Under the pieces are notes generated by a model that worked only from the letters and a program-made list of their open reading frames with translations, was not told where the DNA came from and searched no databases. A DNA stretch of 64,000 bases from a virus: positions 24,783 through 88,782 of the IMG/VR virus record IMGVR_UViG_3300013108_000468; one strand, written 5' to 3'. Of this stretch, positions 29,461 to 60,566 are shown one piece after another (within the stretch, counting starts at the first letter, position 1; the number at the start of each line of letters is the position of its first letter). A program made the position numbers and the translations under genes.

Positions 29461-29509
29461 CTCTTTAGCTGGACCATTTTTTGTATTATCAGTTATACTG
29501 GTGGACAGT

Positions 29510-29938
29510 ATGTTATCTCATGTTGAAAACGGTCGGATAAAGCACAAGCGGTCCCCCATCGATGGGACCGGGAGCTTCAGTGTGCGCGGCCACAAGGCTG
29601 GGGAAGTCCTCGGCGTTGCCTTAATAAGAAAGAGCGGTAAGCCCACGGGTGATGTTTATAAGGACTATCACCAAACCCTTCTGGGGGATTACTTCAACCA
29701 CTCACCTGTGGCCAATGTGGGTTTACGGAAATCCGGCAAAAAACTTATTGCCTATGCCACTAAAGATATCGCTCCGGGCGAGGAAATGGTAGCTGACTAT
29801 AGGGAGCCGCTCTCACCTGTAAAAGACGAGGTGACTCCTGAGTGGGACCGAAAGGCGTTGGCTGCTATGTCTAAGAAAGCCTCTATGTCTATAAAAAAGT
29901 CCATACTTATCGGCGGACTCAGGTTTACGAGGCCCTAA
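29510..29938 (+). CDS. SET-domain protein (putative protein lysine methyltransferase)
   Basis: 142 residues from ATG 29510. SET landmarks in order: GTGSFSVRGHKAGEVLG, YFNHSPVANVGL (the NHS motif that binds SAM) and ATKDIAPGEEMVADYRE (the terminal ELxxDY-like strand). SET enzymes methylate lysines, typically in histones or ribosomal proteins; phage examples exist but targets are unknown. Single gene close to the ubiquitin-like cassette. A basic helix follows the domain. Start chosen by proximity to GGTGG. Confidence 0.78.
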   Translation: MLSHVENGRIKHKRSPIDGTGSFSVRGHKAGEVLGVALIRKSGKPTGDVYKDYHQTLLGDYFNHSPVANVGLRKSGKKLIAYATKDIAPGEEMVADYREPLSPVKDEVTPEWDRKALAAMSKKASMSIKKSILIGGLRFTRP

Positions 29939-30440: not shown

Positions 30441-31061
30441 ATGAGGAGAACTTTACTAACACTTTTTGCGTTCGGTTTTATGAGCGCTGCTTGTTTAAGT
30501 ATTTCTATGGCCCAAGTAAAAAAGGCCAAGTACAGTGGTTCCGGAAGGAATCCCCCAAAGTCTCTGAGCGAAAGACATATCTCTCAGATCAAGAGGGTTC
30601 TCCCGCTTATTCCTGGCGAGTATGACGCATACGAAATTATCGGTATTGGGATGGTTGAGTCCGGTCTCACTGATCGGGCTATTAGCCACACCGGTGATTA
30701 TGGGCTGATGCAGGTTAACTGCCGCATCCACAGAAAACGACTAAAAAAGGTTTTCGGATTTAATGACTGTGAGAAGGACATGCTTGTCGTAGAGAATAAT
30801 ATGAAAGCGTCTCTTCTCTTAATCTCATTATTTCGGAAAAATTATAGGCAGTGTCGTGGTACCAAAGTGTTTGCCTGCTACAACGGCGGGCAAGGCTGGA
30901 AGTATGTCCAAAATAAATGCCTCGACAAGTGTGGTACCGATTCCCAGTGTAGGAAATGTACTCGACCGGCGAGGTATTCAAATAGCGTCAAAAAACATAT
31001 TCGATTCCTAAAAAGAAAATATTCGGTTTTATTTAAGGACCACCCCTCTCAGAAGCGATAG
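30441..31061 (+). CDS. Secreted lytic transglycosylase (SLT fold)
   Basis: 206 residues. Signal peptide MRRTLLTLFAFGFMSAACLS with a likely SPase I site SMA/Q. SLT motif: MVESGLTDRAISHTGDYGLMQVN, with catalytic Glu about residue 73, and later FACYNGGQGW. Cleaves the glycan strand of peptidoglycan. Six late Cys suggest disulfides. Export makes it either a SAR-like/secreted lysis enzyme or a virion part. AGGAGAG precedes ATG. It directly follows the structured gap. Confidence 0.8.
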   Translation: MRRTLLTLFAFGFMSAACLSISMAQVKKAKYSGSGRNPPKSLSERHISQIKRVLPLIPGEYDAYEIIGIGMVESGLTDRAISHTGDYGLMQVNCRIHRKRLKKVFGFNDCEKDMLVVENNMKASLLLISLFRKNYRQCRGTKVFACYNGGQGWKYVQNKCLDKCGTDSQCRKCTRPARYSNSVKKHIRFLKRKYSVLFKDHPSQKR

Positions 31062-31082: not shown

Positions 31083-31442
31083 ATGGTTGAGAGAACTGAC
31101 ACTCCGGAAACTGGGCGTGAAGATTATTATGCGCTAATATCTAAAGTTTTGGAGAACCGAAAGAAGGTTAAAACAGCGTCACACAAGGGCTGGGATTTGA
31201 CCTGCTATGTGGGACGGAGACCATCCTTCGAGAACGATAATGTGACATTTATAGAGTATAGCGTTTACGCTACAGCAGGCGATATCGGCAAAAGCCAAAC
31301 GCCAGACATGTCTAATGTACCACGAGCAATTCGTGTAGATTTTGATGATTCATCAGTAGTTACCCTCAATGCAGAAAGCATGGAAGAAATAACGGGTAAG
31401 CTACAAAAGATTTTCAACGGTTTCCGTTGGGATCTAGTCTAA
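31083..31442 (+). CDS. Unrecognised protein preceding the Ubl gene
   Basis: 119 residues. Alpha/beta (SHKGWDLTCYVGRRPSF, YSVYATAGDIG, IRVDFDDSSVVTL). Ends 15 nt before the Ubl gene, so probably on the same transcript. Function unknown; could belong to the conjugation cassette. Confidence 0.6.
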   Translation: MVERTDTPETGREDYYALISKVLENRKKVKTASHKGWDLTCYVGRRPSFENDNVTFIEYSVYATAGDIGKSQTPDMSNVPRAIRVDFDDSSVVTLNAESMEEITGKLQKIFNGFRWDLV

Positions 31443-31457
31443 GGAGACTAACTAGTT

Positions 31458-31967
31458 ATGCAAAACATTGATTACTTGAACGAAACGTTGGGGTCAGCAA
31501 CCTCAGCACGAGATTCTTTCGTTGCCAACATGGGAACAGACTACAGTCGAAGCAACCTCGACCGCTTGCAGGCGCTCCAGTCTGCTGTAAACGAGGCGCA
31601 AAGCCGACTTGAATCAGCAACGAACAGCAACGGAACTAATGGTTCTGGTGGTGTTAACGGAGGAGGAAACATCTCCTTCGCCGCCCCGTCCACAAGCACA
31701 GTCAGCGCCGCTGACATGTGTGTTGTTACGCTTATCCGAAATGGTAAGTCTGACCGTTGCCTTGAAGTTCGCACTGACTCCACTCTTGGAGACATCGTGA
31801 GTACGCTAAATACGCAAGAGGGCGGCTGGGATATTCGCAGCCTCACCTTCAAGCGACGAGTTGGCCCTGGCCAAACCGCAGACATTACGGACCCGAACAG
31901 CACCGTTCTCGGTGAAGGGCCGCATGAGATTTGGGTTGGTAACAAGGTTGCTGGTGGACGACAGTAG
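31458..31967 (+). CDS. Ubiquitin-like protein with processed-type GG C-terminus
   Basis: 169 residues, AAGGAG upstream. Residues 1-55 form a helical/coiled region, 56-84 a Gly/Asn/Ser linker, and 86-165 a beta-grasp-like domain (CVVTLIRNGKSDRCLEV hairpin, TLGDIVSTL helix, then strands ending HEIWVGNKVAGG). The chain ends G166-G167-R168-Q169. Two residues after GG are typical of ubiquitin-like precursors trimmed by a JAMM or similar peptidase before activation. E2, JAMM and E1 genes follow in order. A terminator separates it from them, so it may be made in excess. Beta-grasp assignment is from pattern and context. Confidence 0.75.
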   Translation: MQNIDYLNETLGSATSARDSFVANMGTDYSRSNLDRLQALQSAVNEAQSRLESATNSNGTNGSGGVNGGGNISFAAPSTSTVSAADMCVVTLIRNGKSDRCLEVRTDSTLGDIVSTLNTQEGGWDIRSLTFKRRVGPGQTADITDPNSTVLGEGPHEIWVGNKVAGGRQ

Positions 31968-31990
31968 TCGTTACTAGTCTCCTGACCCAA

Positions 31991-32022
31991 ACTCGTTATA
32001 CCTGACCAATAATATAACGAGT
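31991..32022. promoter_or_regulatory. Perfect 10-bp inverted repeat (operator-like)
   Basis: ACTCGTTATA (31991-32000) and TATAACGAGT (32013-32022) with a 12-nt spacer, in the gap between the Ubl and E2 genes. The spacing suits a dimeric repressor, or an RNA hairpin before the terminator. Confidence 0.5.
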
Positions 32023-32032
32023 AATAAAAGTG

Positions 32033-32069
32033 GCGGGTGTCCCCTTCGGGGGGCATCCGCTATTTTTTT
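32033..32069 (+). terminator. Strong rho-independent terminator between Ubl and E2 genes
   Basis: A 12-bp stem (GCGGGTGTCCCC with GGGGGCATCCGC) capped by TTCG, then TATTTTTTT. Confidence 0.88.
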
Positions 32070-32080
32070 GTGGAGAAACT

Positions 32081-33190
32081 ATGGCATCAACAGCAAAAAA
32101 CTACGAACTAACTTTTAATGGTGACGACGCTCTGATTGCCAAACAACTTCAGACCATCATCACCGACTCAGAAAGTCTTGCTTCAAAAGAGCTTATAAAA
32201 TTGTCTGCCGCGCTAGAAAGAGAGCGTGCCGCAGAACGAATGCACAACAATAAGGTCTCTGCTAGGTCGGCTATCTATACCCGAGCCCAGCAACGCCTTG
32301 CTGCCAAGGAGGCAGAGTACGACCGTGCCAGAGCGAGAACGCGTGCTGCCAGACAAAAGCTTATGGACCGAAGTTCAAAGTCTTCTCAGGCAAGAGACCG
32401 AGCGGAAAGGTGTGAGCGAGCTATTGCGCAGATAAAAAGGCGCTTGGAGTTGAACGGAGAAATCTACACAGAGGATGGTTTCGAAAAAAGAGCGTTGATG
32501 ATTCGTTTCATTGAGGGTCTCATCGATACGCGTGTCCCAATCAAGTTCTCCACAATCAGTGCAGATGAGCAAAAACTAACTTGGAGAACTAACGATATCT
32601 TCATAAAAGATGGTTTCGGATCTGTTCTCCCACACAACTTTGGTAAATTTGATTGCTCTGTAACTTACAACGGTGACCCCGTTCGAGGAAACCGAGTCAC
32701 TGTATACTGCAAAAGCGTTAACCCGGATGAGGGTAACAGGAGAAACTATCCGCACCCACATCTAAACGAGCATGGTGCAGCATGCCTAGGCAATATCCAA
32801 CCCACCCTAATACAAGATATGGGTGTTAAGGATATCGCTAAAGTAATCGAAACGCTCACGGACTTTCTACAACATTATAATAGAGAGAACCCGTACGTAC
32901 ACTTATCTGCGTGGTGCCCAAACAGATGGGACAACGCTGTATGTGAGTCAGGGAACCACATCATGGCGGATTGTGAGTGTCCTAGATGCAACGAATGCGG
33001 AACTATCCAAGAACAAGAAGACCTTAGCGGCTGTGGTCACTGCCATAGCTGCTGCATGGTTCATCACGTTCATCCGATAAACCCGCCAGCATCATATAGA
33101 GGAATAAACGGAACACCCTGCATCTCAAGAAACGAGTATGCAGCCCGTTTCGCTCAACAACAAACCAATCCAGGAGGAACTAATGACTAA
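32081..33190 (+). CDS. E2-like ubiquitin-conjugating protein with coiled coil and RING-like zinc tail
   Basis: 369 residues from ATG 32081 (TGGAG upstream). Residues about 30-125 are a long Arg/Ala/Glu coiled coil. Residues about 150-275 look like a UBC fold; YPHPHLNEHGAACLGN (223-238) matches the E2 active-site loop (HPN...G..CL) with C235 as the expected thioester Cys. Residues 288-329 are Cys/His-rich (CECPRCNECG, then CGHCHSCCMVHH), able to bind two zinc ions like a RING or other treble clef, so E2 and E3-like functions may be fused. It would take the Ubl from the E1 at 34199 and pass it to substrates. Overlaps the JAMM gene by 8 nt. Confidence 0.78.
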   Translation: MASTAKNYELTFNGDDALIAKQLQTIITDSESLASKELIKLSAALERERAAERMHNNKVSARSAIYTRAQQRLAAKEAEYDRARARTRAARQKLMDRSSKSSQARDRAERCERAIAQIKRRLELNGEIYTEDGFEKRALMIRFIEGLIDTRVPIKFSTISADEQKLTWRTNDIFIKDGFGSVLPHNFGKFDCSVTYNGDPVRGNRVTVYCKSVNPDEGNRRNYPHPHLNEHGAACLGNIQPTLIQDMGVKDIAKVIETLTDFLQHYNRENPYVHLSAWCPNRWDNAVCESGNHIMADCECPRCNECGTIQEQEDLSGCGHCHSCCMVHHVHPINPPASYRGINGTPCISRNEYAARFAQQQTNPGGTND

Positions 33191-34202
33191 AGTTCTAACA
33201 AAGCCAACCGTCCGATTTACACAAAAAGCATATCAACAAATGACAGCATTGACTGATGAGTGCCCAATTGAGATATCAGCAATTGGTATTATTGCCACAG
33301 ATGCTCAACGAAATGAGTGGGGCATTAAAGAGCCTTTCTATGTTCTAGAATTCTATGTTCCAGACCAAGAGTGCACTGGGGGCAGTACTGTCTTCGATAT
33401 GGACTCTTATGCAGATGTGTCTTTGGAGCTTAGGGACCAGGGGATAAGTTCAGACCAAATCTGTGTATGGTGGCACTCCCATGTAAATATGGATACCGGT
33501 CATTCCGGAACAGACGAGAAACAAATTGAAGAATTCAATTTTGATAAGGTCTGTATTAGCGTAATCTCCAACAAAAAGAGAGACCTCAATGTCCGGGTAG
33601 ATATGTACAACCCGTTCAGGTTTTCCTTTGAAAAGTGTGGATGGTCTGTTGATCAGGTAAGCATCTTGGAGGACGGCTGGGCAAAGGAGATGGTTGAAGA
33701 CCACGTCTCTCGACCCGCGCCTACGCAACTAAATGTTGTCAAACACACAAGAAAGTACACTACCGGTTCATACACGGGAAAAGTAAACGGCCACCAGAGC
33801 TTCTTCGGCCACTGGGACGACGACTACATCGGCTGGGACGGCGGTCATCAAAGCAAAGAAGCTGGAGACGACAAAAGCGAAAGCGCTTCGGACGAAGATG
33901 ACTTGATCGCGAATGTTGAGTACGTAAAAGAGTCTCTGCGGTTGCCCGATGAACTAGAGCTTCTGGCAGAACTCTACGAAGAAAACATCGTAGATCTTAC
34001 AGAGGTCATTGAATATCACTCTAAGTGGTACGCAAAAGAAATGAGCACAGAGGAAATTTTGGATGAGTTGTCTGGACTGTACTACGACGTCGGAAGCAAA
34101 AAGGACGACGAAGAACAGGACGATGAAGTCCAGAAAATCCTAGCAGCAGAGTTTGGAGAAGACGACGAGGATGAAGATGAGCCGGTTGGGGTGGCAGTAT
34201 GA
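33183..34202 (+). CDS. JAB/MPN (JAMM) metallopeptidase, deubiquitinase-like
   Basis: 339 residues from ATG 33183 with AGGAGG upstream. A complete JAMM motif is present: E30 (IEISAIG), then H98-S-H100-x7-S108-x2-D111 (WWHSHVNMDTGHSGTDE). The zinc peptidase domain spans about 1-145. The C-terminal 190 residues are very acidic with a helical middle (about 240-310), not part of the usual fold, and may bind partners. Likely role: trim the Ubl tail to GG and/or remove the Ubl from substrates. Overlaps both neighbours (8 and 4 nt), so its level is tied to E2 and E1. Confidence 0.85.
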   Translation: MTKVLTKPTVRFTQKAYQQMTALTDECPIEISAIGIIATDAQRNEWGIKEPFYVLEFYVPDQECTGGSTVFDMDSYADVSLELRDQGISSDQICVWWHSHVNMDTGHSGTDEKQIEEFNFDKVCISVISNKKRDLNVRVDMYNPFRFSFEKCGWSVDQVSILEDGWAKEMVEDHVSRPAPTQLNVVKHTRKYTTGSYTGKVNGHQSFFGHWDDDYIGWDGGHQSKEAGDDKSESASDEDDLIANVEYVKESLRLPDELELLAELYEENIVDLTEVIEYHSKWYAKEMSTEEILDELSGLYYDVGSKKDDEEQDDEVQKILAAEFGEDDEDEDEPVGVAV

Positions 34203-34864
34203 TTGATACCACACGCCAGTCCGGAATTATCCCAGACGAAATCGTACAGAACCGCTCTGTAGCTATTGTTGGCGCAGGGGCTATTGGGTCCCATGTTGCT
34301 GAAGCCTTGTGCAAGATGGGTATTCGAAAGATACGCATCTATGACTTTGACGATGTCGAGTCTCACAACGTAGCCAATCAAGGCTATTTCGTGACCGAAA
34401 TTGGGTATAAGAAATGTGAAGCCTTGCAGCAACGGCTATCGGAAGGAACCGGTGCGGAAATCATCGCTGAAGACAGGAAGTTCGAGGGGGGTGAAACCTT
34501 CCAAGAAGACTATGTAATCTCAGCAGTGGACAATATGTCTGCTCGCTCAGATATCTGGTCAAGCTTTCTTGTAAGCAGCGGAGCAAAGTATTTCCTGGAC
34601 GGTCGTATGGGAGCGCGTGAAGGATCTGTCTTCTATGTAGACAAATCAAATGCAAACAGCGTTTCCTACTACGACCAAAGTCTGTTTCCTGACGAAGAAG
34701 CGGTGCAGCTACCGTGCACAGAAAAAAGCACAATTTTCTGCGCATATGGCATTTCAAGTATTATTTGTGCTCTCGTTGCCAAAAGTATTATCGGTGATGA
34801 GATAAATTATTCAGTGGATGTAGACTTCCTCAACTTCCACTTAAATCGCAATTCTGCGAGCTAG
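34199..34864 (+). CDS. E1-like (ThiF/MoeB family) Ubl-activating enzyme
   Basis: 221 residues, start overlapping the previous stop (ATGA). Rossmann nucleotide site VAIVGAGAIGSH (G25-G30), D49/D51 in IYDFDDVESHN, N57, Q61, and SAVDNMSAR (D111, R116) are E1-family landmarks. C173 in LPCTEKST is the candidate catalytic Cys. It lacks the zinc CxxC pairs of ThiF/MoeB, as do several E1s of bacterial Ubl operons. Function: adenylate the Ubl C-terminus with ATP and form a thioester. Shorter than MoeB (about 250). Confidence 0.85.
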   Translation: MIDTTRQSGIIPDEIVQNRSVAIVGAGAIGSHVAEALCKMGIRKIRIYDFDDVESHNVANQGYFVTEIGYKKCEALQQRLSEGTGAEIIAEDRKFEGGETFQEDYVISAVDNMSARSDIWSSFLVSSGAKYFLDGRMGAREGSVFYVDKSNANSVSYYDQSLFPDEEAVQLPCTEKSTIFCAYGISSIICALVAKSIIGDEINYSVDVDFLNFHLNRNSAS

Positions 34865-34895: not shown

Positions 34896-35717
34896 ATGGC
34901 TACCAACGATAACAACCAAGGTCAGAAGACTGGCCCAAACAAGTCCAAATGGAAGCTTCCCGGTATGGGGCAAGCTATGCTGAATCTGATTGACCCGGAG
35001 CGGGCACCAGATGTTATTACTATTACTTATAATAACGTTGTCACGCGGATGCTCCGTGTGGTGGACCCCGATACCAAGGCGGTTTACTACTCAGGTGTTC
35101 CAGAGTACAGCGATGGGAAGCGGACTTGGCAATGCAAGTTCGGGTTCACTCTGTCCTGCGATGGTTACTTCGACGGCTCTGCCGCGTTGAACTTCATCAC
35201 CAGGGGTGGGTGGAAGCGTGGTTCCAAGAAGCCTACCAAGGCTGAAAAGGCCCGAGCCCGTGAGGAGTTCATCTGTGCGTTTCTTTCGTGTGCTATCAAG
35301 TACCGAGACGCCAAAGAGAAGCCTCACAACTTCGAAGCCCTGAAGGACTTGGTTGCAAGCGGCACCGGCCTCTCTGTGGAGGAGGGGGTGATGGATGAGA
35401 CCACCACAAAGGCGTTGGGCCTGATGGGTGTTCCATTCTATCTTTCCGACCTCGCGGAAAAGCGGGGCCTGAAATTGGTTGTTGATGTTCCTGAATACAT
35501 CGCTCAGTTTGTTCAGCCCACCTACGCCAAGTGCGTTGAGGGTGCCTGGGACAGCGAGAGTAGTCAGGTAGCCATTACATCTGCTCTGTCAACTGCACAG
35601 ACCTCTTTGATGAGGGAGCATGGGTTCAGGTTTAAGAAGGTTCGTCAGTATGCCGTGAAGGCCGCTGCACCGAAGCATTCCAAGACCCCAAGCAACAATG
35701 TGGTTGAAGGTCAGTAA
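34896..35717 (+). CDS. Unrecognised protein after the conjugation cassette
   Basis: 273 residues, AGAGGAG upstream. Segments: basic N-terminus (KSKWKLPGMGQAML), beta-rich 35-105, Lys-rich 105-125, helical 125-245, basic tail. No motif recognised. It follows the E1 gene by 31 nt and ends at a strong terminator, so it may be a substrate or partner of the Ubl system; this rests on position only. GC-rich codon choice suggests strong expression. Confidence 0.65.
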   Translation: MATNDNNQGQKTGPNKSKWKLPGMGQAMLNLIDPERAPDVITITYNNVVTRMLRVVDPDTKAVYYSGVPEYSDGKRTWQCKFGFTLSCDGYFDGSAALNFITRGGWKRGSKKPTKAEKARAREEFICAFLSCAIKYRDAKEKPHNFEALKDLVASGTGLSVEEGVMDETTTKALGLMGVPFYLSDLAEKRGLKLVVDVPEYIAQFVQPTYAKCVEGAWDSESSQVAITSALSTAQTSLMREHGFRFKKVRQYAVKAAAPKHSKTPSNNVVEGQ

Positions 35718-37271: not shown

Positions 37272-38192
37272 ATGACGCAGCGTCAACTACGTCTGAAGAA
37301 GTTTAATTTTGACGACATTGAGAGAAACGCAGACGGCTTCCAGAATTGTCGGAAGGCTAATGCATTCGAGGTCGCAGAGCTACGCGACTCTATTAAGCGG
37401 GACGGCCTTCTGAACCCGCCCATCGTCCGAGTATATAAGGACGAGGATGGGGCTGAGAGGCTGGTTCTGCTCGCAGGTTATCGTCGTTATCAAGCTATTT
37501 CTGAGGAGCGTGCTGCTCTAAAGGAGGCGAACGAGGATACAAGTAAATTCTATGACCAAATCCAGTGCTCGGTATTTACCGGGTCCTTGGAAGAGGCTCT
37601 CGCGCTAAACCTGAGTGAAAATATGCAGCGAAGTTCGCTGAATCACGCAGACCAGTGTGAGGCGATTGCCAAGCTCGTTGATCGAGTTGGGCATCAGGAA
37701 GAGGTGGCAGCTATGCTATCTGTTTCACAGCCTCAGGTAAGTGTCATGACCTCGACCTACCGAGGTTTGTGCAAGGAGGCTTTTGAAGCTCTGCGACACG
37801 GGAACATCCGACTTACCCAGGCTAAGAAGCTGTCACGGGTATTGAAGGAAGATGGAACTCCTGATGTTGCTAAGCAGACAGAGATTCTTGAGCAGATCTT
37901 GACTACGGAAGACAAGGGAATCCCTGCAACCGAGCAGCGGAAGCGAGCAAAGACCTACAGGTCTAAGCGAGAAGTTGAAGAACTTCGTACTCTCTTGGCG
38001 ACCGCTGATGCTGACGGTGTTGATGAAGAACATCGTCGTTCCTTGGCCCAAGTAATCCGTTGGTACTTTTGTGAGCTAGATACGGAAGATATGTTGTATC
38101 GAGTTGACGAGGCCGATGGTGTGGTCGTTGAGGAAGAAGCCCCAGCACCCGTGAAGAAAAAGCGTCGAAAGAAGATTCGAGTAGGCGAATAA
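37272..38192 (+). CDS. ParB-like protein
   Basis: 306 residues, AAGGAG upstream. ParB/Srx N-terminal domain about 25-130: ELRDSIKRDGLLNPPIVR, LLAGYRRYQA (the GxRRxxA phosphate/CTP-type motif), and LNLSENMQRSSLNHADQ (ENxQR). Then a helix-turn-helix (about 140-165: QEEVAAMLSVSQPQVSVM). Basic C-terminus. ParB family members bind DNA sites and load as CTP-gated clamps; phage versions also act in gene control. No ParA lies nearby, so plasmid-type partition is not supported. Directly abuts the AAA+ gene. Confidence 0.82.
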   Translation: MTQRQLRLKKFNFDDIERNADGFQNCRKANAFEVAELRDSIKRDGLLNPPIVRVYKDEDGAERLVLLAGYRRYQAISEERAALKEANEDTSKFYDQIQCSVFTGSLEEALALNLSENMQRSSLNHADQCEAIAKLVDRVGHQEEVAAMLSVSQPQVSVMTSTYRGLCKEAFEALRHGNIRLTQAKKLSRVLKEDGTPDVAKQTEILEQILTTEDKGIPATEQRKRAKTYRSKREVEELRTLLATADADGVDEEHRRSLAQVIRWYFCELDTEDMLYRVDEADGVVVEEEAPAPVKKKRRKKIRVGE

Positions 38193-39770
38193 ATGAGGTC
38201 GGTCGAAGAACTCGACCTTCTGATTCGTGCTGCCTACCCGGCCATCTTTGTAGTTTCCTACGAAGAAGGTCGGGTAGAGCAGTGCTTATCAGGAATAATC
38301 GAGAGACGGAACAACAAGCAGGGGTTGAATTCCAAATTACATGTTTGGTCAATCACTGAAGGTTGCCGTTGCGGTGAAAATGTTCTTTCAGAACTCGACG
38401 GACCTCTAGATGTTCTGGATTATATCCAGGGGTATAGAGAATCCGGCGTATTCCTATTACGAGACTTTGCTAATTTTCTTAACACCGGACCAGAGTATTT
38501 GGTTCAGCGTAAGCTGAGAGATACCCTTTCTAATCTAGGCCCAGGAATCAACATCGTTATTGTTGACTCTGAGCTTGAGATCCCGCCTCGGTTAGAGAAG
38601 CTTATTGCAGTAGTTGATTTTGATCTACCAAGTATTCAAGAGCTAAACGGGACAGCACATCTTTTGATGGCCGACTGTGCAGCCACGGCAACCTTGCAAG
38701 AGGACGCTAGAAACAACATGGTGGACATTGGGTCAAACGCAGCACTCGGACTAACATTGGCTGAAGCCGAAAACGTCTTTGCGAAGTCTCTAGCCCATGC
38801 GAGCATGCTCGACCCCCAAATAATCATTGAGGAGAAAAAGCACATCATCCGAAAGAGTGGGGTGCTCCAGTTCTACGATGTTGACAGAGACATGAACTCT
38901 GTTGGGGGGCTTGAGAATCTGAAGAAGTGGCTGCACCAACGGGGCGGCTCGTTCAGTGAAGAAGCACGAGAGTACGGACTACCTAACCCACGCGGAGTTC
39001 TTATTGTAGGAATCCCAGGAACAGGTAAAAGCCTTGTCTCAAAGTGCATCGGACATGATTGGGGTATGCCCGTCTTAAGGATGGATGTAGGCTCGCTATT
39101 TGGCTCGCTAGTTGGTCAATCAGAAGCGAACATGCGAAAAGCCCTTAAAACTGCTGAGGCCTTAGCGCCTTGTGTCTTGTGGATTGACGAGCTTGAGAAA
39201 AGCCTAGGAAGTTCTACAGGAGTCTCCGATAGTGGGACGACCGCAAGGGTCTTCGGTTCCTTCCTGAGTTGGATGCAAGAAAAGACATCTCCGGTGTTCG
39301 TCGTTGCAACAGCAAATGATGTATCGGCACTTCCACCAGAGATGTTGCGTAAAGGTCGCTTTGATGAGCTGTTTTTCGTAGATCTTCCGGGGGAAGAAGA
39401 CCGGGAGTCTATTATCAATATCCATCTTGGTAGATACGGTAGAGACCCTTCCGTTTTAACTGGGGATTACCCCGGACATGACACTGGAATGGCCGCACTA
39501 GTCGATGCCACAGATGGTTTCTCTGGCGCTGAGCTAGAGCAAATTATTATTGATGGTATGTATAAAGCTTTTCCTGAAGGAAGAGATCCTACAGCAGACG
39601 ACTACCTATCAGCCGCTGTTAACACAGTTCCACTTTCCGCCACTATGGAGACTCAAATTGAGGGCCTGCGTAAATGGGCGGCTGGTCGAGCTATAATGGC
39701 AAACGACAACTCCCAAAAGGAGATTCGTAAACCATCGAGTAAAAAGACCAGAAGGAGAATCATGAGTTGA
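38193..39770 (+). CDS. Ycf46-type AAA+ ATPase
   Basis: 525 residues, start immediately after the ParB stop. The N-terminal 190 residues (LLIRAAYPAIFVVSYEEGRV, HVWSITEG, VFLLRDFANFL) match the Ycf46 N-terminal region. The AAA+ module (about 240-490) has Walker A GIPGTGKS (about 273-280), a pore-loop-like GSLFGSLVGQSE, Walker B LWIDELE (about 328), sensor 1 ATAND, and the arginine finger region RKGRFDELF. Ycf46 proteins of cyanobacteria and plastids are remodelling ATPases with poorly known targets. Beside a Ubl system it might unfold modified proteins; inference only. Confidence 0.85.
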   Translation: MRSVEELDLLIRAAYPAIFVVSYEEGRVEQCLSGIIERRNNKQGLNSKLHVWSITEGCRCGENVLSELDGPLDVLDYIQGYRESGVFLLRDFANFLNTGPEYLVQRKLRDTLSNLGPGINIVIVDSELEIPPRLEKLIAVVDFDLPSIQELNGTAHLLMADCAATATLQEDARNNMVDIGSNAALGLTLAEAENVFAKSLAHASMLDPQIIIEEKKHIIRKSGVLQFYDVDRDMNSVGGLENLKKWLHQRGGSFSEEAREYGLPNPRGVLIVGIPGTGKSLVSKCIGHDWGMPVLRMDVGSLFGSLVGQSEANMRKALKTAEALAPCVLWIDELEKSLGSSTGVSDSGTTARVFGSFLSWMQEKTSPVFVVATANDVSALPPEMLRKGRFDELFFVDLPGEEDRESIINIHLGRYGRDPSVLTGDYPGHDTGMAALVDATDGFSGAELEQIIIDGMYKAFPEGRDPTADDYLSAAVNTVPLSATMETQIEGLRKWAAGRAIMANDNSQKEIRKPSSKKTRRRIMS

Positions 39771-45152: not shown

Positions 45153-48100
45153 TTATACGACGATTGTAATCTTGATTCTATTGGCCGGGTAAAATGGCGT
45201 AATAGAAATCGTTGCTAAAATTTCATCCGGGCTATTAGCGGACTGCTCTAGAGAATCTAGAGTAGCTCTCGCCACCACGGAGCCTGCCACACTAGCCAAA
45301 GCCGCTTGCGCTGTGAGCGAAACAGTCTCTAGCAATTGTTGTGTGATGTTGTTTCTTCCGATGTAACGACGAAGCTGGGCTCGGATGAGCTTGGCCACGA
45401 AATCAACCGCTTTAAGAATAGACAACTCACGCGACTTCAGAGAAGACACGTCCGTTGTAAGCTGATGGCGTGAAGCCATTGGGGCTCCAGGGGTATCCTG
45501 AATGACCCAGTAGATACCGCCAGCCGCAGCAGTTGCCATTTGATTCTCGCTGAAAATATCGCTTGAACCAACAGGTCTTGTGAAGCCAACCATCGGCAAA
45601 TTGGTAAACGGTTGAGATGGGTTCTGCTGGCCAATCATGCCAGCAATACCAGCACACAAGAAGTGCCCCGGAACCAATACCTCTAGACCATTTACGGTGG
45701 TCCCAACCTGCTCGGGTTGAACCATAACCATTCTTCGATTCTGAAACCCGGTAGGTCCACCAGCAATCTCTGCAAGAGTCTCACAAGCCTTGAGCTTCCC
45801 AGCGGTTCCGCTCATGTCAATTGCCGCCTGACGAATCTTAAGGGTGCAAAGCTCCCCATCGGATTCAAAAGTAGACAGATTCGCAAGAGCGTCAGTACCC
45901 GTTCGGTAATAACTATCATCATTACCGGAAGTAGCTGGACCAAAGAGGCCAGGAACGTAAACATCGCCAGTTTCAATAACTACCGTGTCCGCTGAGGGCG
46001 TCCCGGTAATCAAGTACCTAAATGCATCACCTTCGCGGTCTACGTAGATACCGTCCGAGGGGAGGTATGAGGAACCATTCCCGCCACCAAGGACACTACC
46101 GCCAGCATTTGTCTTTCCATCAATAGCCATCGGGATATTGAATGCAGCCGCAGCAGCCTCGTCAGCGATGGTGAGTTCAAACTTACCGCCACCAATGTCA
46201 GAGAGCTTGAAGTCTGCCGAACCAACCAAGGAAGATCCTTCTTCGGTTGGGAGGGAAGGACAGCATAAGAACATTCGCTCATGCTTGGCCAGAGGCTCAG
46301 ACGAATCCGATACGTGAAGACTAAACTTCTTGAAGACTTCCATGTCGTCCGTCATCGGAGCAAGAGCATAGACTTCGTTGAGGGCCAAGAAATCAAGGGC
46401 CTCCGCGTATGCCTCTAGCGTTCCGTTTGGAGCGTCTGGAGTCACGTTACTAACACCGAACGCGCTAACGTTAATGTTAGAGGTATTCAAGAATGCGAGG
46501 TAGAGACCGAAAGCCAACGGGTTAGAAGGATCAATAGGACCAATGAGGCTTTCAACCTCGGAGGCACTAGAGAACACCAAAAGACCTGGGTTAGCAGTAT
46601 CGGCTGTAACATCCTTACGGAGAGCCTTTACCTGAGCATAAACAGGAGCACTCGACCCCGCTGCCGCGATGCCTTGAGCATTTCGGTTAACACCGGGCTT
46701 GATTGAGTAGACCTGGGTTAGATCATTAAACTCTGCTTCTGGTTCAGGTCTAATGTTGTTACCAGCGTCATCGGTGGTTCCACCAATAAGGTTCTCTGCA
46801 ACAACATACCAACCATCAAGATGTACGCCCTTTTCAGCGGCGAATTCAGAGATGACCAATTCCGCTCCAGGGAATCCGCCAGCAATTGCCCAGTTGTTAA
46901 CTTGAACAACTCGACCTAGGACGGAGCCCTTATTCCAGAGCATATCACTCGTCATAACCCGATTGCTTCGACCGTGGAAAAGACGCGAGGTATACGAAGG
47001 AGAAGACTCTCCGAATGCACAGGGCCAACTTCTTGTGTAAGAAATCGTTAGCGCAGAAGCGGGCGTAAGAGCAAAAGAGCATGGGAGAGCGTTTGCAGGA
47101 GCGCCGTTTTGGTTCTCACCAGCAAACGTAACAGCCACGTCCCCCGTAGAGTATTCAGCCAGACTTAGATCAAAACCACGGTTAAGCGGCGTTCCAAGCT
47201 GTGCACCACCAAGGAAGTACTCAGACATGACTCCAGCGGAAGTTGTGTCAGGAGTGTTCGCTGGGCAAGGACCAGTTAGGTCACTGGTTGAAGACTTCAC
47301 CTGGAAGGAGTTGCCTGCGCCATCATCCTTAATAATAAGGGTGGTTGCTTCAGTCACTGCCGTGACAGCCGTTCCCGTGGTCATGCCTGCACCCAACAGG
47401 GCAGACAATTCAGCGTTGGCTGTTTCAAATGAACAATCTTCTCCAGCAGCGTGGGTAGTAGAGGTTCTGGTAATACAGATCCTACCGTTTGCTTCGTGAC
47501 AAATAACTTCGCCACCAGTGTTTCCTGCCGCCTGAAGCTGGGTGTCAATCTCTACGATCAAGTCAGCAACGGTTGCGCTCCCACCGGAGACATTTCCAGC
47601 AAGGTCTAGGTTGATTACATCGTTACCCGTTTGGGTTGTAATCGTACAAGGTACTGCGGCTCCCCAAGTCATACCGGCAGAAGCTGCAAGAACATCTGCG
47701 TCACTAACTTGGCCAGAGCGGAGAGACGCCAATGCAAGCCCATCGACCATCATGGTCAAGGAGCCATTCTGGATGGCTGTCTCACCAAGTGATTGGGCAA
47801 GAAGGTTGTAGTCGTTTCCGATACCACCCGATACCAAGAATCTACGAGAGGCGTGAGCCTGTGGGGGCGTAGCCGCATTTGCGAGTGCCACCTGCGCAAT
47901 GGTGTCAGACCCACTAGCAAACCCACTCCACAGTCTTTCAATGACTGCTGCATTCGGAGAGGAAAGCTCGATTGTGGAGTCGTGACCATTTTGAGACACA
48001 GTGTTAATCCGCAAAGCACTAATCGTCTCGCCCAAGGCGTTAACGACGTTTTCATTAGTGCATCCACCGATACCGGCTAGAGCGTTATTGATAGTGGTGT

Positions 48101-49607
48101 TTACCTGTGCGCCACCCGTAAGAGTGATTGCCAAGGGGACTGCACCATCAATAGATACATTGAGGATTTCACCGCCTAGGCCCAAAGCATCTGCGGTAAG
48201 GTTTCCTACCTCGACAGCGCCACAAACCCAAGCCATCCGGTCGTCGTCGCCACTAGCAGGCCCACCGGCATTGTTGCCGTCTACCCCAAAGTTGATTGGG
48301 TCGGCTCCACCGTGAAGGTTCAAGGTGTGAGCACCGCCAACCCACGGAGCGGGAGCCTGACCAGCAGCGAAGCCTCTAAAGGATTCTGCATCTGGTCCGG
48401 GCGCATAAGTGATAATAAGGTCAGAGGCAATCGAGGCCGTAAATGCCGGGTCCTCTAACGCAGCGCCCAATTGAGCAAACGTATGTGTCTCATCACAATT
48501 GATTGTCAATGTGCCAGCAGGGTTCCAAGCAACGGTCAAATTCGCGTTCTCAGCGAAGACAACGTTAATGGCATTACCAGCCGCACCAACCCAGTTCCCG
48601 ATATCTGCGGGGGTTTGGGTGGCAAGGTATGTTTGGAGCCCAAGAGCTTCAACATGCAAGAAGTTTTCACCACTCACATCAGGCCAAGCAACAAGACTGG
48701 ACGGGTATTGTGCGCTCAGGCTGTGCGCCAAAGGAATAGTGATGCTGGCAGGGGTTCCTGGGTTGCACAATGTGTTTGTCTTAGAGCCAGTTCCAGGCTT
48801 GCCCCAAAGGACAGTCTTACCATTAGCAATCACAGGCTGGTGAGCACTGGAGGTGGCGTTACCGCCGCCATCCGTGGACTCGCCAAGAGTAAATGCATTC
48901 CAATTGGTTGCACTATCGGTCGATAGCTCGGACAGACTATTAGCAAAGAATCTATAAACAGTAATATCGTCGCCTGCCCAGACGCACTCATCAGCGCTAG
49001 TCATGGGGGAGGGCATGCTCGTGTAAGGGATATTGTAGGCGACGTTCGTGTAGTTCGTCTGTCCCGTAATATTAATCCCCTCAAGAGCGTTCATCTGAAC
49101 GATATCATCGGGTCCTGCGCCATAAGCGGAAGACGCTGCGCCAGCAGGGTGCGCCTTTAGCAGTACAGCAGCGGTTGGTCCCTTAGCGTTCGTTCTGAAC
49201 ACAAGCCTGCTTGGTTGAGCAACACCGTCTACTACGCCGGGAGTGATTTCAGCGATAGCACCAGTAAGTTGCTTATTGATCGTGTTGACGACCAAGGCAA
49301 AGCTCATGGAGAAGTCACCATTAACTGCCGCAGGCATGCTAATGATCTGATCTGCGCCATTATTAACGGAAATAATGAACTCACGACCGCGAAGATTCAG
49401 CGGTTCGTTCAGATCAGCAGTGCTGACTGCACGGGCAGCAGTTGATACTGATGCCTGTGGGTTAAGAGCCCCGTCTTCATCGATTGGGTCAACAATCTGA
49501 AAGCAGGGCCCAACGATGCAAGGCACCAGTGCTGGTGTCAAGACGGTGGGCGATTCTACGATGATTTCCTGGGAAATCTCTACGCCGGGTCGTGGAAGCG
49601 TTGCCAT
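45153..49607 (-). CDS. Tail sheath protein, extra-large
   Basis: 1484 residues from ATG 49607 (AGGAG upstream). N-terminus MATLPRPGVEISQEI and the PCIVGPCFQIVD strand, and a C-terminal domain with YWVIQDTPGAPMASRHQL, then ELSILKAVDFVAKLIRAQL and a final TPFYPANRIKITIVV strand, match contractile sheath proteins. Known sheaths are commonly 350-700 residues (T4 gp18 is 659), so about 800 residues of Gly/Ala/Asn-rich domains are inserted between the N- and C-terminal cores, presumably on the outer surface. Confidence 0.82.
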   Translation of the reverse strand: MATLPRPGVEISQEIIVESPTVLTPALVPCIVGPCFQIVDPIDEDGALNPQASVSTAARAVSTADLNEPLNLRGREFIISVNNGADQIISMPAAVNGDFSMSFALVVNTINKQLTGAIAEITPGVVDGVAQPSRLVFRTNAKGPTAAVLLKAHPAGAASSAYGAGPDDIVQMNALEGINITGQTNYTNVAYNIPYTSMPSPMTSADECVWAGDDITVYRFFANSLSELSTDSATNWNAFTLGESTDGGGNATSSAHQPVIANGKTVLWGKPGTGSKTNTLCNPGTPASITIPLAHSLSAQYPSSLVAWPDVSGENFLHVEALGLQTYLATQTPADIGNWVGAAGNAINVVFAENANLTVAWNPAGTLTINCDETHTFAQLGAALEDPAFTASIASDLIITYAPGPDAESFRGFAAGQAPAPWVGGAHTLNLHGGADPINFGVDGNNAGGPASGDDDRMAWVCGAVEVGNLTADALGLGGEILNVSIDGAVPLAITLTGGAQVNTTINNALAGIGGCTNENVVNALGETISALRINTVSQNGHDSTIELSSPNAAVIERLWSGFASGSDTIAQVALANAATPPQAHASRRFLVSGGIGNDYNLLAQSLGETAIQNGSLTMMVDGLALASLRSGQVSDADVLAASAGMTWGAAVPCTITTQTGNDVINLDLAGNVSGGSATVADLIVEIDTQLQAAGNTGGEVICHEANGRICITRTSTTHAAGEDCSFETANAELSALLGAGMTTGTAVTAVTEATTLIIKDDGAGNSFQVKSSTSDLTGPCPANTPDTTSAGVMSEYFLGGAQLGTPLNRGFDLSLAEYSTGDVAVTFAGENQNGAPANALPCSFALTPASALTISYTRSWPCAFGESSPSYTSRLFHGRSNRVMTSDMLWNKGSVLGRVVQVNNWAIAGGFPGAELVISEFAAEKGVHLDGWYVVAENLIGGTTDDAGNNIRPEPEAEFNDLTQVYSIKPGVNRNAQGIAAAGSSAPVYAQVKALRKDVTADTANPGLLVFSSASEVESLIGPIDPSNPLAFGLYLAFLNTSNINVSAFGVSNVTPDAPNGTLEAYAEALDFLALNEVYALAPMTDDMEVFKKFSLHVSDSSEPLAKHERMFLCCPSLPTEEGSSLVGSADFKLSDIGGGKFELTIADEAAAAAFNIPMAIDGKTNAGGSVLGGGNGSSYLPSDGIYVDREGDAFRYLITGTPSADTVVIETGDVYVPGLFGPATSGNDDSYYRTGTDALANLSTFESDGELCTLKIRQAAIDMSGTAGKLKACETLAEIAGGPTGFQNRRMVMVQPEQVGTTVNGLEVLVPGHFLCAGIAGMIGQQNPSQPFTNLPMVGFTRPVGSSDIFSENQMATAAAGGIYWVIQDTPGAPMASRHQLTTDVSSLKSRELSILKAVDFVAKLIRAQLRRYIGRNNITQQLLETVSLTAQAALASVAGSVVARATLDSLEQSANSPDEILATISITPFYPANRIKITIVV

Positions 49608-49629
49608 ATTTATCACTCCTGTTGGGGCT

Positions 49630-54898: not shown

Positions 54899-56104
54899 CT
54901 AGAACTGCGCTACAGCAGGGAACGTTTGCCCCTCGTTAACGAGGTGGTTACGCCCGCCCATGTCAGCTTCCGCAACAGGAAGACGTGCAGCACGCGTCAC
55001 CGCGTTAGTTGCACCACCACCGGCAATAGTCTCGACGGAACCAGTGTAAAGCTCAAGCTTACGAACACCAGCCACGTTTCCGACATACATACCAATGTCT
55101 TCCCAAGCCTCAAACGAGATTCGGTTCCGTTCCTTATCGGCGTAGAACTTAGTCTTGTTGAGAACAAGGAAGCCACCCAAATACTCGGGTGCGGTGAAAG
55201 CATAAATATTGCCAGGACGAAGAATGTCCGTCTTCAGGGTACGAATGAACTTACGGCCAATAACCGTTTTGTACTTGTATCCATCGACAGTAGTCTCGCC
55301 AACAATCTTATCTCCCATATCCGCATGTGCCCAAGCATTCAGGTCCTCGAAGTCAGTGTCAGTCATGAGGAACTGATCACACCGCAGTCGAGAGCCACGA
55401 GCACCGCCGCCTGTGAACGTCTGGAACAACTTAATAAAGTCATCCTTCTGAACAGGGAAGACGAGGGCTTCGTCAGCGCCAGCAACATCGTTTGCAGCAA
55501 CCGTAAGGGCAGCGGCATCTACGCCTTTGACCTTACCAACTTCAGGGATGCCGTTCACGAGCACATTACGTGCCGAGAAAACAGTTGCACCACTGTTGTT
55601 GTATGCAGCACCGAACGCGAGGCCCTGTGCATCTTGCTGTAACGACTGGCAGGCCGATTCCATGTGAGTCAAGAACACGCGGTCCTCAATCTCTTGGATA
55701 TCGTTAACAATGTTACGCTTGATGATCTCCGTGATTGGCATCACGTAGGCCATAAGCTCCTGCTCAGTTTGCTCATAACGCTGCGAACCAACCGTATGAA
55801 ACGGTACCTCAAAGCGCGGACCAGTGTAGTATCTCACCGTGGGCTGTGCCCGGAATGACATACTCATGGCTCGGCTTTGTGGCTCCACTTCAACGACCTT
55901 CACGAGGGTATCGTGATTGACGCTGACCTGGAGGTCCGAACGACTGACGGTCTTCGGGGGGAGGACCTTGCGAGCAAAGCTCTCCTCACGCAGACGGTCT
56001 CTAATAAAATCACCGCCAAGAGCAGCAATCTTTTCTTTTCCGGCCTCAGTATCGAGCTTAGAGACAAAAAGCTCGTTGAGGACTTCGCTAGGTACGCTAG
56101 ACAT
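54899..56104 (-). CDS. Major capsid protein (HK97 fold)
   Basis: 401 residues, AAGGAGG upstream. N-terminal helical arm, then SFRAQPTVRYYTGPRFEVPF, ITEIIKRNIVNDIQEIEDR, and a late DTDFEDLNAWAHADMGD/KTVIGRKFIRTL region, the layout of HK97-fold shells in large phages. Strong ribosome site and a following terminator fit very high expression. It would form the icosahedral head after cleavage by the protease at 58881. Confidence 0.8.
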   Translation of the reverse strand: MSSVPSEVLNELFVSKLDTEAGKEKIAALGGDFIRDRLREESFARKVLPPKTVSRSDLQVSVNHDTLVKVVEVEPQSRAMSMSFRAQPTVRYYTGPRFEVPFHTVGSQRYEQTEQELMAYVMPITEIIKRNIVNDIQEIEDRVFLTHMESACQSLQQDAQGLAFGAAYNNSGATVFSARNVLVNGIPEVGKVKGVDAAALTVAANDVAGADEALVFPVQKDDFIKLFQTFTGGGARGSRLRCDQFLMTDTDFEDLNAWAHADMGDKIVGETTVDGYKYKTVIGRKFIRTLKTDILRPGNIYAFTAPEYLGGFLVLNKTKFYADKERNRISFEAWEDIGMYVGNVAGVRKLELYTGSVETIAGGGATNAVTRAARLPVAEADMGGRNHLVNEGQTFPAVAQF

Positions 56105-58880: not shown

Positions 58881-60566
58881 CTAAAACTTAGCCGCTAGGT
58901 TGTTCAACGACTTGTTGAACGCCCCAGACGTTTTTAGGTTCATACCCAAACGGGTAAGGCCTACAAACACCGAAGTGGCTAAGATTGGATGTTTCTCGAT
59001 AAACCGATCAAGTGGGCCTGTGGACTGATGGGTACGCCGTCTTTTAGATTTTACGTGCGCACCGTAAAGATAAGCCATGGGAAGAACACCAACCAACGCT
59101 AAAGGCAGCTTAGCTGTTTTTGTTAGTTGTGGTTCCAACATGAATTCATCTTCCAGTCTTTGACCATTAATGGTCGAGAGCAATCCTATATCATTACTTG
59201 TAATATGAGCAACAATGGTTCCTATTTTCTCCATTAGCTGCTCGCGATAACCATTGTATCCTGCGGAGATTCTATTAAGAAGCTCCATTTCGTCAGGACT
59301 AATATCAATACTTCCAATACTACCTTCTTTACGCAGACCTAGAATACTAGGACTTAGTTGGTCTGTGGAAGTACTTGGGCGTCTAATAATCGTGATCCTC
59401 TTCGTAATAACTGGATCGAACATACTACGCTTGGGAATAATGTCCATAAGCATATCTCTAATAGATGACGAAAACTGGTTAGGTGCGCCTATCCTAACAC
59501 TCCTGTCTACATCATTAGAGGGTGAAAATGTGCAGCCAGCATTATCCAGTCTGTCTGCCAACGGTTTTTTCCCTATCCGAATCAGAATAATTCTCTGGTA
59601 CTCGCGGGGCTTTAGCACAATACCTGCGGAAGCGGAAGTTGTTAGCGCATTGGCCACAGGGCAACATGCCATCCTAGATAAAACATTTCGAGAAAGGTCT
59701 GGCTCGCTTTGAGTGACGCGGGGCATAACCCTAGCAGACATGGCCGGAACCTCTTTTAACATATTAGAGATTTTATTCTTAGCGGCCATTTTCTCTTTTA
59801 GCAAATTGACCGCGCTCCCATCCCGAATGCCTGCTTCCTCTGCTGCCAAGGCAGATGAAGAACCGTGGATAGAGGCAACCTTAGCCATCGCATAACTAGT
59901 TCTATCAGCACCAATAACAACAAAGCTCAAGTCAAAGAACTTGGGGTTTGGGTTATACACGAAAACCTTTCTGCCATCTGGGAACACTTTCCCCATCATT
60001 GTTTTCGTATGGTGGCAGTAGTCAGCCCTAGTTTTAGACTTGTGACCACAAATGGAGCAGACATCATACTTGACTCTACATCCCATGCTCACGGCTGGGT
60101 TCTCACCGGCGTCCAGCCTTCTTACGAGATCTCCGGACCCCTCTAACTCTGCTTTTTCGCGGCAAATCTTTAAGATCAATTCCACCCTATGCATCACAGG
60201 GTTATACACCGCGTGACAAATTTGCCCTAAAGACCGGTTAATGTCCTTGTTTTTATGGTGTCTGTAGATCCCAGCATTTAAAAAAGTTTGGTGTCCGAAG
60301 CCAGTATTGCTCTCTGTTGGGTTCAGCTCCTTCTCTTCGAAGAAATCCCCATTAATATTACTGCCGTAATACTCACCAGCCCCTAGGGCATTAACCAAAA
60401 CATATAGGTGAGTGTCCATGGACTTAAGCCCACCTATGTAAGATTGAATTTCTGGGTGGAGCGCGTCATGAGACGCAACCTTAACCAAACTGTCAGACGG
60501 GTTAATCGCCTGAACAAAGATATTTCCTTCGTCATCTGACCCAGGAAATGTAAGTAGCTTCAGCAT
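58881..60566 (-). CDS. Prohead protease with zinc insertion and long C-terminal part
   Basis: 561 residues, GGGAGG upstream. The first 230 residues fit the HK97/U9-type prohead protease: H103/H104 in YRHHKNKD, a LGQICHAVYNPVMHRVELIL strand pair, and S160 in NPAVSMGCRV. A CSICGHK...CHH cluster (170-186) adds a probable zinc knuckle. The C-terminal 300 residues (including GVLPMAYLYGAHVKSKR near the end) are not part of the usual enzyme and may be a scaffold or virion-bound part. It cuts head proteins during maturation. Confidence 0.78.
   Translation of the reverse strand: MLKLLTFPGSDDEGNIFVQAINPSDSLVKVASHDALHPEIQSYIGGLKSMDTHLYVLVNALGAGEYYGSNINGDFFEEKELNPTESNTGFGHQTFLNAGIYRHHKNKDINRSLGQICHAVYNPVMHRVELILKICREKAELEGSGDLVRRLDAGENPAVSMGCRVKYDVCSICGHKSKTRADYCHHTKTMMGKVFPDGRKVFVYNPNPKFFDLSFVVIGADRTSYAMAKVASIHGSSSALAAEEAGIRDGSAVNLLKEKMAAKNKISNMLKEVPAMSARVMPRVTQSEPDLSRNVLSRMACCPVANALTTSASAGIVLKPREYQRIILIRIGKKPLADRLDNAGCTFSPSNDVDRSVRIGAPNQFSSSIRDMLMDIIPKRSMFDPVITKRITIIRRPSTSTDQLSPSILGLRKEGSIGSIDISPDEMELLNRISAGYNGYREQLMEKIGTIVAHITSNDIGLLSTINGQRLEDEFMLEPQLTKTAKLPLALVGVLPMAYLYGAHVKSKRRRTHQSTGPLDRFIEKHPILATSVFVGLTRLGMNLKTSGAFNKSLNNLAAKF

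Follow-up and report, generated by a model that had tools for sequence, protein, structure and literature searches.

A phage cassette encoding a ubiquitin-like protein, an E2-like protein, a JAMM protease and a minimal E1 probably constitutes a reversible conjugation pathway

The stretch of DNA analyzed here, hereafter the window, comprises 64,000 nucleotides (positions 24,783-88,782) of the 88,782-base virus record IMGVR_UViG_3300013108_000468. Its plus strand carries, in this order, the genes for a ubiquitin-like protein (Ubl), an E2-like protein (resembling ubiquitin-conjugating enzymes), a JAB/JAMM metalloprotease and an E1/ThiF-like activating enzyme, which we refer to together as the cassette. 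A further gene lies directly 3′ of the E1 gene and is linked to the cassette by association only. In window coordinates, the genes and their features are as follows:

31458-31967, plus strand: Ubl precursor, 169 amino acids; N-terminal helical hairpin (residues 3-58), linker, beta-grasp domain (residues 85-162, nucleotides 31710-31943), GG at residues 166-167 (nucleotides 31953-31958), tail RQ
32081-33190, plus strand: E2-like protein, 369 amino acids; coiled coil (residues 16-125), UBC-like core (residues ~140-275), HPH at residues 225-227 (nucleotides 32753-32761), putative catalytic Cys235 (nucleotides 32783-32785), C-terminal Cys/His-rich zinc-finger-like domain (residues 288-347, nucleotides 32942-33121)
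33183-34202, plus strand: JAB/JAMM metalloprotease, 339 amino acids; E30 (nucleotides 33270-33272), H98-x-H100-x7-S108-x2-D111 (nucleotides 33474-33515), acidic C-terminal extension
34199-34864, plus strand: minimal E1/ThiF-like activating enzyme, 221 amino acids; N-terminal R6, GxGxxG at residues 25-30 (nucleotides 34271-34288), D49, D51, N57, K72, D111, Cys173 (nucleotides 34715-34717)
34896-35717, plus strand: 273-amino acid protein, function unassigned

The cassette genes are tightly packed: the JAB start codon (ATG 33183) lies inside the last eight nucleotides of the E2 gene, the E1 start codon (ATG 34199) overlaps the JAB stop by four nucleotides, and a Shine-Dalgarno-like GGAG precedes both the Ubl and the E2 genes. 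Residue numbering depends on ATG 32081 as the start of the E2 gene and ATG 33183 as that of the JAB gene, the latter being backed by relatives. A preliminary description of this DNA had delineated the four open reading frames (ORFs), named their catalytic residues and pointed out the overlap of the last three genes; all of these are correct, and its proposal that the phage encodes the Ubl, E2, JAMM and E1 components of a conjugation pathway is supported here. An identical cassette is found in a 181,199-base viral contig (L002), and the cassette is also present in relatives of 178 and 173 kb, the former apparently circular because its JAB gene is split across both contig ends. Compared with these two relatives, the ratio of nonsynonymous to synonymous substitution rates (dN/dS) is ~0.065 for the Ubl gene and 0.063-0.079 for the E1 gene; for the E2 and JAB genes synonymous sites are saturated, and the proportion of nonsynonymous differences (pN) is far below that of synonymous ones (pS). 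Given these values and the conservation of catalytic residues across phages, the cassette ORFs are not chance occurrences.

The Ubl possesses a single beta-grasp domain, its N-terminal half being a helical hairpin. AlphaFold predicts a beta-beta-alpha-beta-beta-beta domain at residues 87-162 with a predicted local distance difference test score (pLDDT) of about 90 or higher, and the structural neighbors listed by Foldseek for this model are ubiquitin-like or ubiquitin-like-domain proteins with probability 1.00; the beta-grasp, whose absence would have counted against the preliminary description, is thus present. A profile of the Ubl family matches PF1061 (7.7e-8) and SAMP2 (1.6e-7), while Pfam, PHROGs and PADLOC left both the Ubl and the E2 of the window unrecognized. 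The window Ubl ends in GGRQ and its relatives in GGNA, GGRRPKHSWGF..., GGF or GGI; the GG is fixed and the tail variable. Among 30 aligned phage Ubls the GG is invariant, with 0-2 residues following it in 29. Tandem Ubls also occur: one ORF (L186:2264-2896) holds three repeats, each ending in IKGN, and two-copy Ubls (L123:5200-5613, L142:8454-8867 and L144:8447-8878) adjoin phage E2-JAB-E1 genes. Variable tails behind a fixed GG, together with tandem copies, require a processing protease, and a JAMM protease is encoded alongside. The repeats of the tandem Ubls are beta-grasp-like, end in KGG, IKGN, VKGN or IRGA, and resemble polyubiquitin-like precursors.

In the E2-like protein, the AlphaFold model and the sequence place Cys235 after a beta-meander, eight residues past the HPH and just before a helix, which is exactly where the catalytic cysteine of an E2 is expected and where the preliminary description had put it. 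The pattern HPH-x7-C is conserved as HPH...GxxCxG, with C-L-G-N from Cys235 onward. The eukaryotic E2 active-site motif is HPN-x7-C, and the phage loop HPHLNEHGAACLG aligns position by position with its eukaryotic counterpart, HPN...G..CL. An equivalent of Cys235 is present in 114 of 114 distinct phage proteins collected with an iterated profile; across these, the three positions of the HPH are occupied by His in 67%, Pro in 89% and His in 83%, and xG follows the cysteine in 98%. The core is modeled with a pLDDT of about 90, and the top Foldseek ranks for the model are the eukaryotic E2s UbcH10, UBE2E2, UbcH5c, UBE2S, Rad6 and Cdc34 (probability up to 0.97, E-values of ~0.01-0.09). We regard the assignment as an E2 as likely. 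A Cys-rich C-terminal tail, counted as at least seven cysteines and not in every case zinc-like, is carried by 11 of 66 phage E2s, among them the E2s of the window (32942-33121), L148:3207-4229, L047:4895-6109, L140:319-2223 and the Xanthomonas phage PhiXhv-15 (L026:2310-4985); within the window group, most Cys/His positions of the tail are invariant. It is possible that this tail serves as a built-in E3 or as a target-binding domain.

The third protein conforms to the JAMM metalloprotease motif E + HxHx(7)SxxD. In more than 120 phage homologues, H98, H100, S108 and D111 are conserved in 100% and E30 in 99%. As a single sequence the JAB is weakly recognized by Pfam (0.073), and single-sequence phmmer searches of the PDB with the E2 or the JAB returned nothing useful; a profile of the phage JABs has matches in Rpn11 and archaeal JAMM1 (6e-4 to 1e-3). 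Elsewhere in the 181 kb genome there is a weak 31-residue match to the JAB profile (G001:C1:171067-171162, L207), at which a simple motif scan detected no complete JAMM motif. The fourth protein is a ThiF-family enzyme (PF00899, 1.3e-22, over the cut-off) consisting of one ThiF domain that spans residues 17-215. All 141 phage sequences share its G25, G27, D49, N57, K72, D111, R136 and C173, and a profile of ten phage E1s finds UBA5 as its best PDB match (4.4e-20), followed by Uba1 (6e-17).

The preliminary description knew of no characterized phage system of this kind; the gene set is not peculiar to this phage and recurs in dozens of lineages, and parts of it have gone unrecognized in cultured phages. 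Scans of the viral collection for relatives of the E1 and of the JAB yielded 265 and 151 contigs, respectively, 80 of each being kept. The E2, JAB and E1 genes occur together at 102 of 146 non-redundant phage loci, in the order E2-JAB-E1 at 80 and E1-JAB-E2 at 14; the cassette genes abut or overlap at most loci, and most gaps are small. At the 131 loci with both a JAB and an E1, the E1s represent 39 lineages that share less than 50% identity. A short ORF with a Ubl-like tail lies within 900 nucleotides of the cassette at 54 of 95 loci, compared with 2.0% of background ORFs, and a stricter test admitting only GG endings 5′ of the E2 gene is positive at 30 of 99 loci against a background of 2.2%. 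Bacterial collections gave 10 loci and viral collections 265, numbers that do not form a fair ratio, as the search patterns differed; some of the bacterial-bin contigs may be other mobile elements, integrases being present on them.

There are 91 phage records in GenBank with a relative of the E1; many of them label it as thiamine biosynthesis or hypothetical, and cassette parts in cultured phages bear the labels 'thiamine biosynthesis protein', 'metalloprotease' and 'hypothetical'. The Xanthomonas phages PhiXhv-12, -15 and -16 carry Ubl-E2-E1. In PhiXhv-15 (PV764602.1) the Ubl ends exactly in ...ASGG and is accompanied by an 892-residue E2 (profile match 2e-31) and an E1; a JAB was not detected in its whole 228.7 kb genome. 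We considered whether phages with a ready-made GG generally dispense with a JAB; this holds for PhiXhv-15 and fails for loci L043 and L191, where a tail-less Ubl is accompanied by a JAB. Bacteroides phage crAss001 and Flavobacterium phages FpV4 and Fpv3 possess JAB-E1 plus candidate Ubl and E2 genes. In crAss001, gp77 is clearly the JAB and gp76 clearly the E1; hhalign comparison of the phage E2 with gp78, or with PRTRC-B of the plasmid modules discussed below, gave no significant link, and gp78 as E2 and gp79 as Ubl remain guesses. In crAss-like phages (L025, L023, L024 and L059), the candidate E2 is preceded by a protein whose N-terminus looks like a beta-grasp and which continues into a conserved KSGA motif and a long extension; it is possibly a long-tailed Ubl precursor. 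No description of a phage cassette of this kind was found in the literature searched, which was covered in part and excluded preprints.

To describe the genomic setting, neighbors were surveyed at one locus per E1 lineage. The commonest neighboring PHROGs are DNA primase, helicase, DNA polymerase, Sak4, exonuclease VIII, SbcC and endonuclease VII, with the terminase small subunit as the sole packaging family in the top list; the neighbor clusters common to the largest numbers of lineages are DnaB-like proteins (11), SNF2 helicases (7), DnaG primases (6) and PolA (4). In most lineages with nameable neighbors, the cassette is embedded in a DNA-replication/recombination module. In the window group, all close relatives examined encode, 3′ of the cassette, two proteins without assigned function, a ParB and an AAA+ ATPase. 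Reverse transcriptases adjoin cassettes in some gut phages (L176:9740-10912 and L028:6954-8291; the L176 type occurs at 18 loci in 2 lineages).

The window itself is clearly phage DNA, as seen from its structural genes and its phage replication and metabolism genes. The structural genes are the following:

45153-49616, minus strand: tail sheath
54899-56104, minus strand: major capsid protein
58881-60566, minus strand: head protease

Elsewhere the phage encodes a B12-type ribonucleotide reductase, an exonuclease, a UvsX-like recombinase, NrdG and ParB. At 1487 amino acids the sheath is unusually long, and its tail-sheath match is confined to the C-terminal ~220 residues. Directly 5′ of the Ubl gene lie a lytic transglycosylase (SLT, 30441-31061) and a 119-amino acid protein without assigned function (31083-31442), both of which recur in the 178 kb relative. 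A SET-domain protein, a putative protein methyltransferase, is encoded at 29501-29938 (PF00856, 1.6e-6), with a similar ORF in L020 (2414-2845). The 273-amino acid protein that follows the E1 is conserved alongside the cassette in the most closely related phages (40-63% identity in relatives) and had no family match in the library scans of the window proteins. Further 3′, and likewise kept with the cassette in close relatives, are a ParB-like protein (37272-38192) and the AAA+ ATPase (38193-39770), which matches PF00004 with a trace of AAA_lid_3 and has relatives in Mycobacterium phages.

Taken together, it is quite probable that the four genes form a self-contained and reversible phage pathway for Ubl conjugation and deconjugation. 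This reading is built on the gene set, its co-occurrence, order and overlap, the conserved catalytic residues, the Ubl fold, the invariant GG with its variable tails, and the replication context; from these we infer the reaction steps, the direction and order of transfer, the E2 fold with its modest structural score, and the class of targets. The JAB/JAMM protease would cut the Ubl precursor behind GG167 and thereby release the RQ tail. The minimal E1 would then adenylate the exposed glycine with ATP-Mg and either load the Ubl onto Cys173 or pass it straight on. Transfer to Cys235 of the E2 would follow, the HPH-x7-C loop acting as the counterpart of the eukaryotic HPN-x7-C with Asn replaced by His. 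The E2 would attach the Ubl to a target lysine, with recognition possibly provided by the coiled coil and, among phages of this group, also by the zinc-finger-like domain; the JAB may also remove conjugated Ubl. The pathway would be expressed together with replication genes. Because the cassette sits in a replication/recombination module in most lineages whose neighbors can be named, we tentatively propose that the targets are phage or host proteins of DNA metabolism during early infection. More speculative is a general picture in which dozens of phage lineages run autonomous Ubl signaling, with processing of precursors or tandem Ubls, an E2 active site of eukaryotic type and, in some, an E2 acting as its own E3 through the zinc finger; its reversible targets would be replication proteins of the phage or of its host.

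Several observations weigh against the conjugation pathway or its proposed targets. The best Foldseek E-value for the E2 is only 0.013 with a target TM-score of about 0.42; at the sequence level, a profile of the E2 core matches no solved E2 in the PDB. No separate E3 gene was found, about 40% of cassettes are without a Ubl nearby that is recognizable by the tail pattern used, and many phage Ubls end in KGN or KGA rather than GG. The replication context, moreover, may reflect early expression only.

Other roles for the cassette have to be weighed against this reading. Hosts use Ubl systems against phages (PMC11354881, PMC10097602), and the cassette might block or hijack such immunity (BIL, Bub, CBASS Cap2/Cap3), for instance by tagging sensors or by the JAB stripping BilA-like conjugates from virions; the E1 is indeed remotely similar to CBASS E1-E2 and BubCD. 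We regard counter-defence as unlikely, as a full E1-E2-Ubl set exceeds the needs of a decoy or a protease, up to 39 lineages retain these three as a set whose catalytic residues do not vary, and the surroundings are replication genes and no counter-defence island. If the cassette acted during assembly on virion or tail proteins of the phage itself, this would find parallels in BIL, which, according to a title cited in PMC12660748, conjugates Ubl and interferes with phage assembly, and in lambda-type tails, which use a Ubl (TAPI) and a JAB (TAPK) (PMC1779556). The lambda-type clusters, however, are described without E1 or E2, the structural genes of the window lie on the opposite strand 9-30 kb away, and neighbors elsewhere are mostly replication genes; we thus disfavor virion modification as the default, and judge it rather improbable.

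That the cassette defends its host cell against competing phages, as a superinfection-excluding analogue of BIL, appears more doubtful still. Its bacterial relatives BIL and CBASS are antiviral, and it is portable and present in unrelated phages, yet it does not occupy an accessory or moron position, and no window protein has a convincing PADLOC match except for the E1 domain common to CBASS E1-E2. Least probable is a sulfur carrier of the ThiS/MoaD/TtuB type, in which the Ubl, once activated by the E1, would supply a small molecule or tRNA with sulfur. The similarity of the Ubls is closest to the MoaD/ThiS/SAMP2 type, many end in KGG or KGN, and the E1 resembles ThiF; against this, most Ubls occur together with an E2-like protein whose invariant Cys lies in an E2 motif, and sulfurtransferases are absent among the most frequent neighbor families listed.

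Bacterial Ubl conjugation has so far been known mainly as a host defence against phages, and a complete pathway conserved by phages reverses this picture: phages appear to tag proteins reversibly, in a manner better known from eukaryotes. If the proposed targets are correct, a ubiquitin-like layer of control would act on viral DNA replication in bacteria. The cassette offers a compact natural Ubl-E2-JAB-E1 system for study, the same or related sets being carried by cultured phages, and it suggests that mobile elements such as phages and PRTRC plasmids are a reservoir of eukaryote-like ubiquitin machinery.

Among known systems, the preliminary description had compared the cassette with the bacterial BIL operons. 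Both have the same four roles, the JAB BilC processing the Ubl BilA in BIL. The E1 BilD, however, comprises an inactive and an active adenylation domain and a Cys domain of ~80 residues, the E2 BilB carries the catalytic motif CEHH, and BilA has two Ubl domains (PMC11354881). In the cassette, which is carried by a phage, the E1 is a single domain of 221 residues without the inactive half and the Cys domain, the E2 has HPH-x7-C, and the Ubl contains a single beta-grasp domain. With all three defining features absent, membership in BIL was rejected. Partial likenesses extend to other systems. Class 6e polyUbl operons, in which the JAB is usually fused to the E1 and the E2-like domain is catalytically inactive (PMC1779556), share tandem Ubls with some phage cassettes (three copies in L186; two in L123, L142 and L144). 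The lambda/T1 cluster of TAPI and the JAB-NlpC protein TAPK is likewise a phage-encoded pairing of Ubl and JAB, but it belongs to a tail module, whereas here the full set lies in a replication region. The UFM1 E1 (UBA5) and CBASS Cap2 also have a minimal E1 domain, with remote homology only.

The nearest known relative is instead the PRTRC module of plasmids, which by content and order we infer to be operon class 6d of Iyer et al. 2006. Its order, C(Ubl)-(F)-B(E2)-A(JAB)-ThiF, is that of the phage cassette, the E1s are related, both E2s have the motif GxxCxG, both modules reside on mobile elements and both have a ParB gene nearby. The window E1 scores 67.8 bits (E 8.9e-19) against PRTRC_ThiF TIGR03736, below the 144.75-bit cut-off, which makes it related and not a member; hhalign links the phage E1 to PRTRC ThiF at 98.8%, compared with 29% for the E2 and 0.9% for the JAB, for which a sequence relation is not established. 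The NCBIfam models for PRTRC A, B and C had no match at E<=10 among the window proteins, and PRTRC-F, -E and -D were not detected in the phage set. The E1 tree groups the window E1 with the PRTRC E1s (98/87); as long branches are involved and a single phage clade is not rejected (approximately unbiased test, p=0.25), we claim no origin for the E1. The active sites of the E2s differ as well: class 6d E2s are without a His before the Cys and use a downstream His (PMC1779556), whereas the phage E2 has the HPH before its Cys. Since the cassette fails the PRTRC model tests, departs from that module in its E2 active site and differs from BIL in three respects, we regard it as a phage variant of bacterial Ubl conjugation in its own right.

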